Part shown: in pieces, positions 4,063 through 21,238 of the stretch | Layout of the letters: each line of letters begins with the position of its first letter | Numbering within the stretch: the first letter of the stretch is position 1 | From: Sulfurospirillum oryzae | GTDB lineage: Bacteria > Campylobacterota > Campylobacteria > Campylobacterales > Sulfurospirillaceae | Direction of reading: 5' to 3' | DNA length: 64,000 nt | Assembly (NCBI RefSeq): GCF_025770725.1 | Contig: NZ_JANZKZ010000001.1 | Span: 372,001-436,000, forward strand | Program-made: the position numbers and the translations under genes | The notes under the pieces: generated by a model | What the model saw: the letters and a program-made list of their open reading frames with translations, nothing else | What the model was told of the DNA's origin: nothing | The model's database searches: none

Positions 4063-4097
4063 ATTATAGGCGAAAATCATCGATCTTTACATGTAAA
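4063..4097 (-). promoter_or_regulatory. Predicted dctP promoter overlapping a palindrome
   Basis: TATAAT (4068-4063) on the minus strand is a good -10. Seventeen bases further upstream the -35 position falls inside the palindrome at 4086-4097. No better -35 is visible. Confidence 0.5.
4086..4097. repeat. TTTACATGTAAA palindrome
   Basis: Perfect 12-mer in the gap between the dctP start and the response-regulator stop, at the predicted -35 position of dctP. Confidence 0.9.
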
Positions 4098-16425: not shown

Positions 16426-17016
16426 TTAAAAAGCGACTTTGGGTGCTGCACTCTCCGCTTGTGTCGCAGTAAAATTCTGTTTGACTTGTGCATCAGGGTA
16501 GAAAATAGAAGCTATCCATCTTCCCGGAATCGTTCTAAGTTCAAGATTGTAATTTTTCACCGCCTCGATGTAGTCGCGTCTAGCAACAGCAATTCTGTTT
16601 TCTGTTCCTTCTAATTGTGATTGCAGACTTAGAAAGTTTTGATTGGCTTTAAGATCGGGGTAGCGTTCTGAAACTGCCATGAGGCGAGTAAGGGCGCTAC
16701 TAAGACCATCTTGTGCCGCTTGATACGCTTTAAACGCTTGAGGGTTACTCAAAACTTCAGGCGTAAGAGTAATCTGCCCTACTTTGGCTCTGGCTTCCGT
16801 TACTTGCGTAAACACCTCTTTTTCATGAGCTGCATACCCTTGAACCGTAGCAACAAGGTTAGGGATCAAGTCGCTTCTTCGTTTGTACTGGTTATCAACA
16901 GCAGACGCCGCAGCGATAACGGTTTCATCAAGTCTAGGAACGTTGTTGATTTTCGGAACGATGACCACCGCCGCAAGAACGGCTAACACACCCAGTGCTA
17001 TCAAAAAGTTTTTCAT
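16426..17016 (-). CDS. lemA: LemA family protein
   Basis: A 196-residue protein with an N-terminal TM anchor (about 3-22) and a long helical LemA domain facing the periplasm. The signature NQYKRRSDLIPNLV and the end FTATQAE are typical. First gene of a three-gene operon with two TPM-domain proteins. A TATAAT -10 (17050-17045) precedes it. The function of LemA is not firmly established. Confidence 0.92.
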   Translation of the reverse strand: MKNFLIALGVLAVLAAVVIVPKINNVPRLDETVIAAASAVDNQYKRRSDLIPNLVATVQGYAAHEKEVFTQVTEARAKVGQITLTPEVLSNPQAFKAYQAAQDGLSSALTRLMAVSERYPDLKANQNFLSLQSQLEGTENRIAVARRDYIEAVKNYNLELRTIPGRWIASIFYPDAQVKQNFTATQAESAAPKVAF

Positions 17017-17050: not shown

Positions 17051-17122
17051 TATGCTTTGTATTTAATCTTATCTTGATAGGGTATTTTTTGAGTGTATGT
17101 GTGGTACTGAGCTTTTGAGAGG

Positions 17123-17134
17123 GTTACATGTAAA
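17123..17134. repeat. Palindrome copy (GTTACATGTAAA)
   Basis: Exact core 65 bases before the accessory module start; covers the -35 position of its predicted promoter. Confidence 0.88.
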
Positions 17135-17151
17135 TTACTTTGTAAACAAGA

Positions 17152-17157
17152 TACAAT
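17152..17157 (+). promoter_or_regulatory. Predicted promoter of the SAM-protein/RT module
   Basis: TACAAT is a plausible -10, 42 bases before the GTG start. With a 17-base spacer the -35 is TGTAAA, inside the palindrome. The DNA between lemA and the module is AT-rich, so the call is tentative. Confidence 0.35.
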
Positions 17158-17199
17158 AACACTTAAAAATTTATTTTTCCTAATTGCCAAGGCTAGATA

Positions 17200-18135
17200 G
17201 TGATAAATTCTAACGACTTACCCGAAGAATTATGGCTTCATAATGAACAAGCTGTAAAATTATGTACAGAACTAGAAACAAAATATATTGAGCATCTTCA
17301 TAAATGTAATGCATACGAGTTAGCCAAAACATCTGATGGTAAAAGTCATCCTATAGGCGGTTCAGGTGCAACTGAAGCAATAGAGCATTTTGCCTATAGG
17401 TTTGTAAATTCTAGTACCAGAGTTATTCATATTACACTAGACCCTGATAAGAAATTTTCAAATATACAAATAGATATTTTTTCAACTTTTTCAAAAGGTA
17501 ATATTTCTATTTTAGATTTAGCTTGTGGAACAGGTGGGCACATCTTATCGTTACTGACTACTCTTGTTGAATTAAGATTAAAAAAACTTCTTCCAACTCT
17601 TCCATTAAATATCCATATTTTAGCTGCTGATATTTCTCCAAAAGCATTAGAAATTTATCAAAGTCTTCTACATGATCTTGAGCCATATTTGCTGAATGCT
17701 GGCATTCGTGTTATATATTCTACTTATGAATGGGACGCATGCTCTTCAATTCAAACTAGTTCACTAATGGATACTTTTTTCGAAATAACTAGCACTATTT
17801 CGTCTAATGAGTATTATGTGATAACGTCAGCTTTTAGTGGCTTTGCAGGCAATGAAACTAATTTCACAAGAATTGAAAGATCCCTACAACATATTACAGA
17901 CAGGTTAGGAACAAAAAATAGTACATTTTTGTGGATAGAACCTGATGGTAAAGATGCAAAAAAATTTCTAGGCTTATTAAACAGAATTTTTGAGAATATA
18001 AAAGATTTTTTTGTACAAATATTTGAAGAAAGAGAATCTATTTCTCATACCTATTGCTGGTGGGAACCAATAAAAAAAGAAGTTATAAAAAAAGGTAATG
18101 TAAGTATTAAATTATATAAGAGAAATAATGAATAA
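17200..18135 (+). CDS. Predicted SAM-dependent methyltransferase-like protein paired with an RT
   Basis: A 311-residue soluble protein. Motif I, ILDLACGTGGHIL (Asp at 106, Gly-rich loop 110-113), and an acidic second-strand motif ILAADIS (D144) are those of a class I SAM-binding Rossmann fold. A later strand YYVITSAFSGF lacks the NPPY/DPPY motif of amino-DNA methylases, so the target is unknown. The first 90 residues are helical. The start is GTG with AAGG nine bases upstream. The 3' end overlaps the reverse transcriptase gene by 8 bases (ATGAATAA), implying coupled expression. Codon use is much more AT-rich (AAA, ATA, AAT, AGA) than the neighbours, a sign of transfer. I do not recognise the family. 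Confidence 0.78.
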   Translation: MINSNDLPEELWLHNEQAVKLCTELETKYIEHLHKCNAYELAKTSDGKSHPIGGSGATEAIEHFAYRFVNSSTRVIHITLDPDKKFSNIQIDIFSTFSKGNISILDLACGTGGHILSLLTTLVELRLKKLLPTLPLNIHILAADISPKALEIYQSLLHDLEPYLLNAGIRVIYSTYEWDACSSIQTSSLMDTFFEITSTISSNEYYVITSAFSGFAGNETNFTRIERSLQHITDRLGTKNSTFLWIEPDGKDAKKFLGLLNRIFENIKDFFVQIFEERESISHTYCWWEPIKKEVIKKGNVSIKLYKRNNE

Positions 18136-19858
18136 TTTTGAATTATTATTTACAAAAGCTTTGAATTCGGCAAGAAGAAGTTCACCCATTACATATGTTG
18201 CATTAAGAGCCCTTATGGACTCATGCCCCAAAGATAATCAAATAAAATTACTATCTTCAATTATGTCACGGCAACTTCAAACATCAAATAAATGGCATTA
18301 TAGAAATTTTAAAGTTTTTAAAGAAAAAGAACCACAAGGAATAGAATACCGTGAATTAACAATAGGATCGCCTCTAACTTTATTGGCAGAAGCCATGCTG
18401 ATAGACAAATTACAAGAAAACAAGATATACAATGACAATCCAAATGTTTATAGTTATAGATTGCCTTTCTATAAAAATTCGGGTCAAAATTTTGCCTTTT
18501 TTATGCATGGATACAAAAAAAGAAATGAAAAAATTGAATTAGCGCTAGCAGAAGGTAATTTTGCGTATATTTTTGATTTGAAGAAATTTTATCCAAGTGT
18601 AAATCAAAAACAATTATATGAAGTTTTTAATAACAAAATAGAAATATCACAGTGCGAGAAAAAAACAAAAAAACAACTAAATATATTTATAAATTCTTTG
18701 TTAGAAGCTACCAATCAAGGAGTAGCTGCAAATCCAGATTTTGGGCATCTTTGTGCAGATTTATATTTAGAAAATTTTGATTTTAATATGACACAACATT
18801 TTGGAACTTCTCATTATTTTAGGTATGTGGATGACCTTGTCATTATAAGTAGTCAAGAAACCCAATTAGATGAAATCAGAGCCAAAATAAAACAACTACT
18901 TCCTATTGGATTAGAATTAAATGAAAAAAAGACAGACTTAGTTAATTATGAGCAATGGAGTAAAATTTCTTTTGATGATATTGACAAAATTAATGATGAG
19001 TTTTCTGATTTTATGACTTCCCTTACTATCTATCTTGCATTAAACCCTAAAAAATTAGGTAACTTAAAACAAGAATTCAATGATAAAAATATTTTTCTTC
19101 CTTTTGATAAAATATTTGCTAATAGCCAATATAAAAGACAAGTAAAATTTTACAAAAGTTTACTTTTTGATAATTATGCATACCTATTGTATTTATTCGG
19201 TAAGTCGCATAATTTTTTAGAAATCGCTGAAACATTAAAAAATAAACTTTTTTACATTCTTGAAAAACTGCCTGACATAAAGATTTTGAATGGATTTGAG
19301 CGAAGATTATTAATTCAAAAGTACCGTTTTTGTATTAATAGGTTACTGATTTTTTCAGGGAAAGAATCAATAGAAAAAATCCTTTTTCTAATACCCGATG
19401 AAAAAGAATTTATAGAAATCAGAATTTTAATCATTGCTTTATTGAATAATGATGTGAGTGAGCTTGTGAAATTTAATGGTAATACGATTCTATCGTTTTG
19501 TGAACTATGGAAAAGTAATTTAAAAGAAAAACCTATAATTCAAATTTCAGAGGAAGCAACTCTTGAGAATTATTTTGATGCTATCCTTACTCTAGTTTTG
19601 CATGACATACTTCCAGTTGAAATTATCCCTATAGATAAATTCGATCATGAAAAACAAGCATTATTGCATTCATTGAAAATAGCCCAAAAACAAGGAAGAA
19701 TTTTTAATAATTTGAATTATTACGATGAAATTACAACTATTTTAAATAGAATATCTCATGATGAGATAGGAACTTATCTTACTACAAGATACAACGATAA
19801 TGAAGTAGTAGATTTAGAAACTTTGAAAATTGGGTCAGGTATATCTTCAGGTTTTTAA
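18128..19858 (+). CDS. Reverse transcriptase, Abi/UG (defence-associated) type
   Basis: A 576-residue protein. The RT core has an N-terminal block YRELTIGSPLTLLAEAM, motif A FDLKKFYPSV (D150), motif B-like NQGVAANPDFGHL, and motif C YFRYVDDLVI (catalytic D235, D236). No group II maturase, HNH or integrase domain follows. Instead the C-terminal half (about 300-570) is Ile/Leu/Lys-rich and helical, resembling the helical-repeat domains of Abi and UG reverse transcriptases used in phage defence. The partner gene upstream overlaps it. The gene is strongly AT-rich and sits between core genes. Retron-type function is less likely because no msr/msd repeat is visible, but a structured RNA upstream cannot be excluded. 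Confidence 0.88.
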   Translation: MNNFELLFTKALNSARRSSPITYVALRALMDSCPKDNQIKLLSSIMSRQLQTSNKWHYRNFKVFKEKEPQGIEYRELTIGSPLTLLAEAMLIDKLQENKIYNDNPNVYSYRLPFYKNSGQNFAFFMHGYKKRNEKIELALAEGNFAYIFDLKKFYPSVNQKQLYEVFNNKIEISQCEKKTKKQLNIFINSLLEATNQGVAANPDFGHLCADLYLENFDFNMTQHFGTSHYFRYVDDLVIISSQETQLDEIRAKIKQLLPIGLELNEKKTDLVNYEQWSKISFDDIDKINDEFSDFMTSLTIYLALNPKKLGNLKQEFNDKNIFLPFDKIFANSQYKRQVKFYKSLLFDNYAYLLYLFGKSHNFLEIAETLKNKLFYILEKLPDIKILNGFERRLLIQKYRFCINRLLIFSGKESIEKILFLIPDEKEFIEIRILIIALLNNDVSELVKFNGNTILSFCELWKSNLKEKPIIQISEEATLENYFDAILTLVLHDILPVEIIPIDKFDHEKQALLHSLKIAQKQGRIFNNLNYYDEITTILNRISHDEIGTYLTTRYNDNEVVDLETLKIGSGISSGF

Positions 19859-19866
19859 GACTGAGA

Positions 19867-19885
19867 AAGCCCCCTTTCGAGGCTT
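19867..19885. terminator. Weak convergent hairpin after the RT gene
   Basis: AAGCC / GGCTT with a 9-base loop containing CCC. It lies between the convergent RT and hcp genes. The 5-bp stem and lack of a strong T run make it a modest candidate. Confidence 0.3.
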
Positions 19886-19892
19886 CCCCATC

Positions 19893-19904
19893 TTTACATG
19901 TAAA
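19893..19904. repeat. TTTACATGTAAA palindrome
   Basis: Perfect 12-mer between the RT stop and the hcp stop; with the copy at 17123 it brackets the accessory module. Confidence 0.9.
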
Positions 19905-19906
19905 CC

Positions 19907-21238
19907 TTACGCAGGTTTTTTAAGCAGTAATTTTTCCACGTCACTTGCCGCATCATCGGTCAAATGCAAGTTAAAGTTCTCTTGCAAGAAAGCGAAGATG
20001 TCATCGTTGACAAATTGTGGTGGTTTTGGTCCAAGATAGATGTTTTTGATGCCAAGGCTAAAGAGTCCTAGAAGAATAAGAACTGCTTTTTGCTCCATCC
20101 AGCTAAGAACGATAGAAACTGGCAAGTCATGTACGGTTACGCCAAGTGCGCCAGCAAGAGCTAGAGCGATGTGAACTGCACCGTTACTGTCATTGCATTG
20201 ACCAAGGTCTAGGTAGCGAGGGATGCCTGTGTCTGCAACGGTACCAAAGTCGATGTCGTTAAATCTAAATTTACCGCAACTTGACGTTAAGATGACGCAG
20301 TCGTTTGGAAGACTCTCTGCCATTTTTCTATAGTATTCGCCACCTGAGCCTGGAGCGTCACAACCTGCGATAACGAAGAACTGGCTGATTTTGCCTGCTT
20401 GAACGGCTTCAAGAATTTGAGGTGCAAGACCAAGGATGGTTTTATAGTGGTGACCTGTTACGAGTGTCTCTTCACTGTCAAAGCCTGTTACATCAGGAAG
20501 TGCAAGTGTCTGAGCAATGACTTCACTGAAGTCGTTATTTTGGATTTTTTTGCCCTCTTTGATGCCTACGATGTCGTAGGTATAGAGTCTATCGACATAA
20601 GTTGATGTTGATTTTGGAGGAACGATACAGTTGGTGTTCACGATGATAGTTCCGCCCCACTCTTCAAAGAGTTTAGTTTGGTCAAACCATGATTTACCGA
20701 TGTTGCCTTTAAGGTGAGCATATTTGCGAAGTTCTGGGTAACCGTGTGCGGGAAGCATTTCGGAGTGGGTGTAGATGTTGATGCCTTTACCCTCTGTTTG
20801 GCGTAAAAGCTCTAAAAGCATGTCAAGGTTGTGACCGCTGACCAAAATGCCTTTGCCCTCAGCCTTGTTTTGAGAAATGCTAACAGGTGTTGGAACGCCA
20901 AGGTGCGAAGTGTGTGCTTCGCTTAAGATGTCCATCATTCTCACACCAGCAGAACCGATTTTCATGAGTTGAGCGATGTGATCGTCAAAGTTGAAGTTAA
21001 CGTTAGTGAGGGTGAAATAAAGTGTTTGAGCGATGACGTCATCGACTTCTTTGGTGTCTGCACCAAATTCATTGGCATGTGTTCTATACGCACTAAGACC
21101 TTTAAGACCGTAAATCATAATGTCTTGAAGTTTCGCCAAGTTGGCATCTTTGCCACACGTTCCTATATCTTGACCTTTAGAACCACAGCCATTAATGGCA
21201 CTCATAGAGCATTGATCACATAACATATTTAAAGACAT
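19907..21238 (-). CDS. hcp: Hydroxylamine reductase / hybrid cluster protein, short form
   Basis: An Fe-S enzyme of the nitrosative-stress response (hydroxylamine or NO reduction). The N-terminal cysteines CDQCSMS...GCGSKG...GTCGK bind a cubane cluster. The hybrid cluster ligands lie in NCIVPP, AGCDAPG, SSCGKFRF and LGQCNDSNGA. The 443 residues are about 100 fewer than the usual 550: one helical insert near residues 60-100 is missing, as in the short (class III) Hcp forms. ATTAGGAGAG precedes the ATG. It is a single-gene unit; no hcr reductase is adjacent. Confidence 0.93.
   Translation of the reverse strand: MSLNMLCDQCSMSAINGCGSKGQDIGTCGKDANLAKLQDIMIYGLKGLSAYRTHANEFGADTKEVDDVIAQTLYFTLTNVNFNFDDHIAQLMKIGSAGVRMMDILSEAHTSHLGVPTPVSISQNKAEGKGILVSGHNLDMLLELLRQTEGKGINIYTHSEMLPAHGYPELRKYAHLKGNIGKSWFDQTKLFEEWGGTIIVNTNCIVPPKSTSTYVDRLYTYDIVGIKEGKKIQNNDFSEVIAQTLALPDVTGFDSEETLVTGHHYKTILGLAPQILEAVQAGKISQFFVIAGCDAPGSGGEYYRKMAESLPNDCVILTSSCGKFRFNDIDFGTVADTGIPRYLDLGQCNDSNGAVHIALALAGALGVTVHDLPVSIVLSWMEQKAVLILLGLFSLGIKNIYLGPKPPQFVNDDIFAFLQENFNLHLTDDAASDVEKLLLKKPA

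Follow-up and report, generated by a model that had tools for sequence, protein, structure and literature searches.

The window analyzed here spans 64,000 nucleotides of the Sulfurospirillum oryzae genome and harbors, between a lemA-like gene and hcp, two overlapping genes on the same strand, encoding a SAM-methyltransferase-like protein (hereafter, the partner) and a reverse transcriptase (RT). The features of the locus, in window coordinates, are as follows.

16426-17016, minus strand: lemA-like gene flanking the pair (ORF list)
17092-19858, plus strand: whole mobile module, the block common to the window and to sequence L002, apparently part of genome G400 (blastn and genus search)
17152-17157, plus strand: TACAAT, probably the -10 box of a promoter belonging to the module, judged from its sequence and conserved between the window and L002 despite different flanks
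17189-17192, plus strand: AAGG ribosome-binding site of the partner gene, 7 nt before the GTG, conserved in L002
17200-18135, plus strand: SAM-methyltransferase-like partner, 311 aa, GTG start (ORF list)
17515-17538, plus strand: partner motif I, DLACGTGG, residues 106-113, with G-[TS]-G invariant in 9/9
17629-17631, plus strand: partner D144, the acid that closes beta-2, within A/G-A/G-D-x-S; unchanged in 9/9 (alignment)
17731-17739, plus strand: partner W-[DN]-A motif, residues 178-180, conserved in 9/9 (alignment)
17827-17841, plus strand: partner S-[AN]-F-S-G motif, residues 210-214, in 9/9, occupying the place of [DNS]PP[YFW]
17932-17943, plus strand: partner [WYF]IEP motif at the predicted beta-5, residues 245-248 (alignment)
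18128-19858, plus strand: UG36 RT, 576 aa, ATG start (ORF list), with an RT domain at about residues 75-285, a helical domain at about 285-555 and a conserved tail to 576
18824-18835, plus strand: RT catalytic motif YVDD, residues 233-236, invariant (alignment)
19844-19846, plus strand: RT Ser573 in the C-terminal tail, candidate priming residue; a Ser lies at most about 4 residues from the C-terminus in 9/9 homologues
19907-21238, minus strand: hcp, the other flank of the pair (ORF list)

The original prediction had singled out this pair for its AT richness, for a DLACGTGG motif in the upstream product, for an 8-base overlap between the two open reading frames and for a YVDD motif with D235 and D236 in the RT. 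All of these were recovered, the overlap at its exact coordinates, and GC content is 0.25-0.32 over the pair vs about 0.40-0.46 in the flanking genes. The RT has a single match in its own genome. Both genes are under purifying selection, and their dN/dS ratios of 0.14-0.27 among close pairs, combined with conservation in nine loci, place the pair far beyond chance.

When scanned against PADLOC with hmmscan, the RT matched RT_UG36 across residues 6-570 of 576 (E 3.8e-124, 413.6 bits), with Drt3a as the next-best family (1.6e-23, 81.6 bits), followed by UG25, UG17 and UG9; it also reached Pfam RVT_1 (2.7e-8). The RT is a full-length member of UG36, a catalogued candidate DRT family in PADLOC, and hence not a new RT type. 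On an RT-domain tree without class 1, class 3 and retron RT sequences, the nine UG36 RTs are monophyletic (support 95) and form with DRT3a and DRT10 a clade (support 100) in which the RT domain clusters with the class 2 DRTs, apart from RT-Cas1 and group II-like RTs. Similarly, a profile of five homologues matched the solved structures of DRT3a (9z6y; DRT3a, or UG3, is the best match outside UG36 by both HMM and structure), DRT9 (9ioa; UG28, the second structural match) and DRT2 (9c0i) ahead of any named intron RT, the third-ranked structure (8bgj) being labelled only as an RNA-directed DNA polymerase. The nearest solved relatives are not the Abi RTs mentioned in the original prediction but DRT3a, DRT9 and DRT2, which with DRT10 constitute RNA-templated class 2 systems (PMC13174585, PMC12632851, PMC12483538); neither Abi, DRT1, class 1 nor class 3 structures appeared among the matches of the profile to solved structures, and no Abi models were found among the best PADLOC matches of the RT.

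The RT was also evaluated against the two families whose membership would have spoken against a defence system, and it falls outside both. A group II intron RT was rejected on the basis of its TIGR04416 score (49 bits vs a cut-off of 300), its separate position in the tree and the absence of intron RNA in Rfam searches, and a retron on the basis of its best retron model (41.5 bits vs a cut-off of 235) and the lack of an Rfam RNA, on a tree that held no retron RT. Membership of DRT10 was likewise discarded: RT_UG17 yields only a partial match of 54.5 bits, and the partner is not SLATT. No close relatives of the RT were found in phages.

The C-terminal half of the RT had been described as helical, and it is all-helical in an AlphaFold model of low confidence (pLDDT 37) that was used for the helix count alone; class 1 RTs of the Abi kind carry an alpha-solenoid in this position. 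The RT is about 130 aa longer than the DRT10 RT and differs from it in this helical C-terminal domain. The tails of UG36 RTs are conserved in 9/9 homologues, with ends such as GISSGF, SYS, GYSL and DYFSL, and DRT10 RTs end in Ser or Tyr. For one of the latter, Ser456 has been reported as the primer (PMC12632851). By analogy, protein priming from the C-terminal Ser is the natural expectation for UG36, and is probably the mode of priming.

The partner is a class I SAM-methyltransferase-like protein, by its sequence motifs, that belongs to no registered family. The components of a SAM pocket (a G-x-G motif I, the beta-2 acid and a beta-3 motif) are present in 9/9 partners, although in the Aliarcobacter group motif I reads YLPCGSG, starting with Y and missing the acidic residue. 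After D144 the partner reads S-x-x-A-L, a feature of PrmC-like enzymes, and the W-[DN]-A motif is placed where we would expect, from class I methyltransferase anatomy, the adenine side of the pocket. Nucleic-acid amino-methyltransferases carry [DNS]PP[YFW] as catalytic motif IV. This NPPY-type motif is absent from the alignment of nine partners, which have S-[AN]-F-S-G in its place.

Profile matches of the window partner are weak but mutually consistent, the best being met_A_Alw26 (an Alw26-type adenine methyltransferase, 1e-4) and PrmC (0.006; 4e-4 to 0.07 across partners, with the lowest value in G568), and further weak matches to Methyltransf_31/25, CheR and, at 0.035, a phage tRNA methyltransferase family were observed. 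All SAM-fold matches lie below curated cut-offs, the best Pfam score being 15.9 bits vs 27, with NCBIfam behaving likewise. The partner thus resembles PrmC/HemK-like and adenine-specific class I methyltransferases in its SAM-binding half, through motif I and the D-x-S-x-x-A-L that follows beta-2, but scores far below their curated cut-offs and has no NPPY-type motif IV. Sequence searches found no solved relative, and the AlphaFold model of the partner (pLDDT 42) was set aside as a guide to its fold: its top Foldseek matches were P-loop NTPases at a TM of about 0.2, which we treated as meaningless.

The proposal that the upstream gene accompanies this RT in other genomes was upheld in every case found by searches centred on Campylobacterota: the pair occurs in 9/9 loci, in the same order, across four families, and the two genes either overlap by up to 14 nt or lie at most 4 nt apart. 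When 397 genomes of the phylum were scanned for UG36, four strong matches (393-536 bits) emerged, each with a partner upstream, and separate RT and partner profile searches on 104 Arcobacteraceae genomes identified the same five genomes. Two further families, of 228 and 175 genomes, were searched with the partner and contributed one locus each, with the RT adjacent in both. Within the genus (24 genomes), only the window genome and G400 carry the module, a scan of genome contigs returned only the close copy, and the sole other partner match was a 70-residue fragment (1e-4); full-length relatives of the partner all sit beside UG36 RTs. Outside chromosomes, searches of viral contigs, phages and plasmids for partner relatives identified only an A. 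faecis plasmid.

This distribution is patchy (about 1% of Campylobacterota genomes). The RT and partner gene trees resolve the same three groups and are strongly congruent (Mantel r 0.973, p 0.00025); these groups cut across host families, which indicates that the pair has been transferred as a unit. In the genus, window positions 17092-19858 correspond to L002 4964-7731 with 90% identity (blastn) at different and unrelated chromosomal sites, flanked by lemA and hcp in the window and by a PIN toxin gene and a HipA-like gene in G400. Downstream, the similarity stops at the RT stop codon. A search for direct-repeat borders of the inserted block found none, and a short inverted pair considered as a border was rejected as part of a palindrome present genome-wide. 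An IS110-family transposase-like gene (identified by eye; L098 13221-14192) lies about 0.8 kb upstream of the UG36 module of G376 and may be a mobility partner.

A further link between the two proteins came from a second PADLOC family. The partner matches the N-terminal third of the RT_UG35 model (positions 22-184 of 938) in 5/5 members scanned, with a best E of 2.8e-12 and a matching region that takes in the SAM motif, while the RT domains of UG36 match the same model at about 320-670. Because both parts match and the 938 positions of the model come close to the length of partner plus RT (311+576 = 887), UG35 is most simply explained as a natural fusion of the two, and on the PADLOC model it looks like one: a single protein there, two overlapping genes here. 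Among the Campylobacterota genomes sampled, none yielded a full-length UG35 protein.

The genomic neighborhood of the module points to a role in defence. RM, CBASS, Olokun or Lamassu genes surround four of the nine loci, and the other five are outside visible defence islands. In G443 the module has type I RM/OloB on one side and, on the other, a CD-NTase accompanied by a 2TM effector (CBASS); elsewhere it adjoins LmuB and type I RM on plasmid pAFAEC in G317, type I RM in G333 and type IIG RM in G568. In the window, the pair had been described as isolated between core genes, which is locally true; its hcp side, however, is variable across the genus. The hcp 3' flank (window 19859-19907; L092-L097) presents different genes in every species examined, NERD proteins included, and in sister species it carries a TIR/Pycsar-like effector (G398), PDC-S31 (G146), a PD-Lambda-4_A-like protein (G247) or others, so that the window module sits in a small defence hot spot. 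The association with defence put forward in the original prediction is, on the strength of these islands and of the hot spot, well supported.

Several observations were made on these neighborhoods. In G209, a 108-bp sequence of the hcp 3' end flanks a small cargo gene as two copies with 95% identity (L097 4538-4645 and 5337-5444), as if cargo entered via recombination at the hcp terminator. Two genes beside UG36 modules in defence islands (L117 9399-10277 and L120 4875-7289) match nothing in Pfam or PADLOC and may be further defence genes, and a third in the same setting (L033 8226-9293) is annotated as DUF4297.

Together, these results suggest that the two genes form a DRT-type anti-phage module that spreads horizontally and in which the partner most plausibly acts as an effector, a combined statement to which we assign a probability of about 0.5. 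That the module serves defence is, taken by itself, very probable; that the partner is an effector gated by the RT is plausible, at somewhat worse than even odds. Under this leading reading, the UG36 RT would synthesize DNA, probably using its own C-terminal serine as the primer, and the partner, bound to the RT in a fixed ratio, would serve as effector or switch. The RT-DNA complex would hold the partner in check until infection disturbs the DNA, whereupon the released partner would methylate an essential host component, or sequester SAM for it, and growth would stop, the outcome probably being abortive. The data establish which RT this is, that the two genes are strictly paired and inherited together, the signal of a natural fusion, the SAM-pocket motifs, the purifying selection and the setting in defence islands, whereas we infer the protein priming, the physical complex, the effector role, the abortive outcome and the substrate.

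The effector reading is consistent with the full-length RT_UG36 match, with the DRT3a/DRT10 clade and the nearest named solved relatives, with the strict pairing, congruent trees and UG35 match, and with the defence islands and hcp-side spot. DRT10 (UG17 RT, SLATT and ncRNA; L101-L103) provides a template: like the module, it places an accessory gene upstream of an RT of the same clade, and the conserved C-terminal Ser has its counterpart there. The partner gene stands where SLATT, which is required for DRT10 defence (PMC12632851), is found, and would fill the effector slot that SLATT holds; the partner itself is methyltransferase-like rather than SLATT. Conversely, the SAM-fold matches of the partner fall below curated cut-offs, and its motif I lacks the acidic residue in Aliarcobacter; both AlphaFold models are of low confidence, five loci lie outside visible islands, and no ncRNA was found, unlike in studied class 2 DRTs.

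The ncRNA lies upstream of the RT in DRT9 and DRT10 and downstream in DRT3. No intergenic space is shared across the nine UG36 loci that could hold a conserved ncRNA, and the class 2 hallmark of an ncRNA encoded next to the RT is not found in any of them. In G443 the neighboring genes leave no space on either side, with a 4-nt overlap upstream and 16 nt downstream to a convergent gene, and an intergenic ncRNA therefore does not fit the module as a whole and was rejected; the upstream gap is also only 0-17 nt in G568, G317 and G718. Fold z-scores revealed no signal shared across modules, Rfam yielded nothing above threshold at the module, and a hidden RNA detectable by synonymous constraint was unsupported, the low windows falling at differing places in different pairs. 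The module differs in this from DRT10, for whose upstream ncRNA it has no space, and both from DRT3, which has a second RT (UG8) and an ncRNA, and from DRT9, which has an ncRNA, it is further set apart by its partner.

An RNA inside the two genes or supplied in trans is possible, and the RT would then be templated by it, making the module an ordinary ncRNA-dependent class 2 DRT with an extra gene. This alternative, which can hold alongside the other interpretations of the partner, draws on the fact that the nearest relatives of the RT (DRT3a, DRT9, DRT2 and DRT10) are all ncRNA-templated (PMC12632851, PMC12483538, PMC13174585), but the missing room and the lack of a conserved fold, of synonymous constraint at a shared position and of an Rfam match all weigh on it, and we consider it tentative, distinctly below even odds.

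The partner could also be a modifier rather than a toxin, methylating the RT itself, the DNA that it makes or the RNA template such that the product becomes stable or recognized. RT-made DNA would then be the effector, as poly-dA is in DRT9. The UG35 fusion, which implies 1:1 stoichiometry and action in cis, agrees with such a role, as do the SAM-pocket residues conserved in 9/9 partners and the weak matches to adenine-specific DNA methyltransferases and PrmC/HemK. The replacement of [DNS]PP[YFW] by S-x-F-S-G and the use of separate effectors or bare DNA by studied DRTs speak against it, however, and render it unlikely. Less likely still, and in our view improbable, is that the partner is a SAM sensor or guard whose binding of SAM licenses or silences the RT, with phage SAM-degrading enzymes, or methylation-based anti-restriction, as the trigger: the motifs for binding (motif I, D144 and W-[DN]-A) are conserved and a recognizable catalytic motif is not, and pairing and fusion with the RT are fixed, but S-x-F-S-G and IEP are conserved too, which suggests an active site. 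The present data do not separate the effector, the cDNA/RT modifier and the SAM sensor readings. Finally, the two genes might have no part in defence and instead be selfish or domesticated, serving in housekeeping or DNA repair. Five of the nine loci, the window among them, might suggest as much by their setting among ordinary genes, but this reading is very improbable given the patchy distribution in about 1% of Campylobacterota genomes, the transfer as a unit between families, the low GC, the repeated residence in defence islands and the hot spot at the window site.

Class 2 DRTs in the literature searched rely on a dedicated ncRNA template and none has a methyltransferase-like partner. It is conceivable, if on the unlikely side, that UG36 and UG35 constitute a new mechanistic class of RT immunity, in which a class 2-related RT without a dedicated ncRNA would switch a SAM-binding partner through its DNA product. 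If true, this would represent an RT-methyltransferase immune circuit, based on methyltransferase or SAM-sensing activity, of a kind not found in the sources searched. The module is compact (2.8 kb, two genes) and comes with a putative fused counterpart in UG35 and nine natural variants, which makes two questions directly testable: what the template of UG36 RTs is, and how RT-made DNA could control a SAM enzyme. The initial impression of an unfamiliar DRT type thus fails for the RT, which is catalogued as RT_UG36 in PADLOC-DB in an entry without a partner model, and stands for the partner and the UG35 link. Relative to PADLOC, which has no model for the partner, and to the open literature searched, where no paper on UG36 was found, we found no precedent for the partner or its obligate pairing with the RT, nor for the link to a UG35 fusion or the missing room for an ncRNA; an earlier mention is possible in the main UG/Abi survey (Mestre et al. 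2022, 10.1093/nar/gkac467), which may refer to the neighbor.

The palindrome encountered at the borders of the block was examined as a separate matter. This 12-bp sequence, TTTACATGTAAA, occurs 16 times in the window, where 0.02 instances are expected (at 4086, 10723, 12038, 12626, 19893, 21569 and ten more positions), and 549 times in the genome, within and between genes, compared with 0 for the reversed control. Copy number ranges from 14 to 792 in the genus and from 0 to 346 in the rest of the family, and the sequence is nearly absent in other families. No description of it was found in the literature searched; in its genic and intergenic spread it resembles HIP1 of cyanobacteria.
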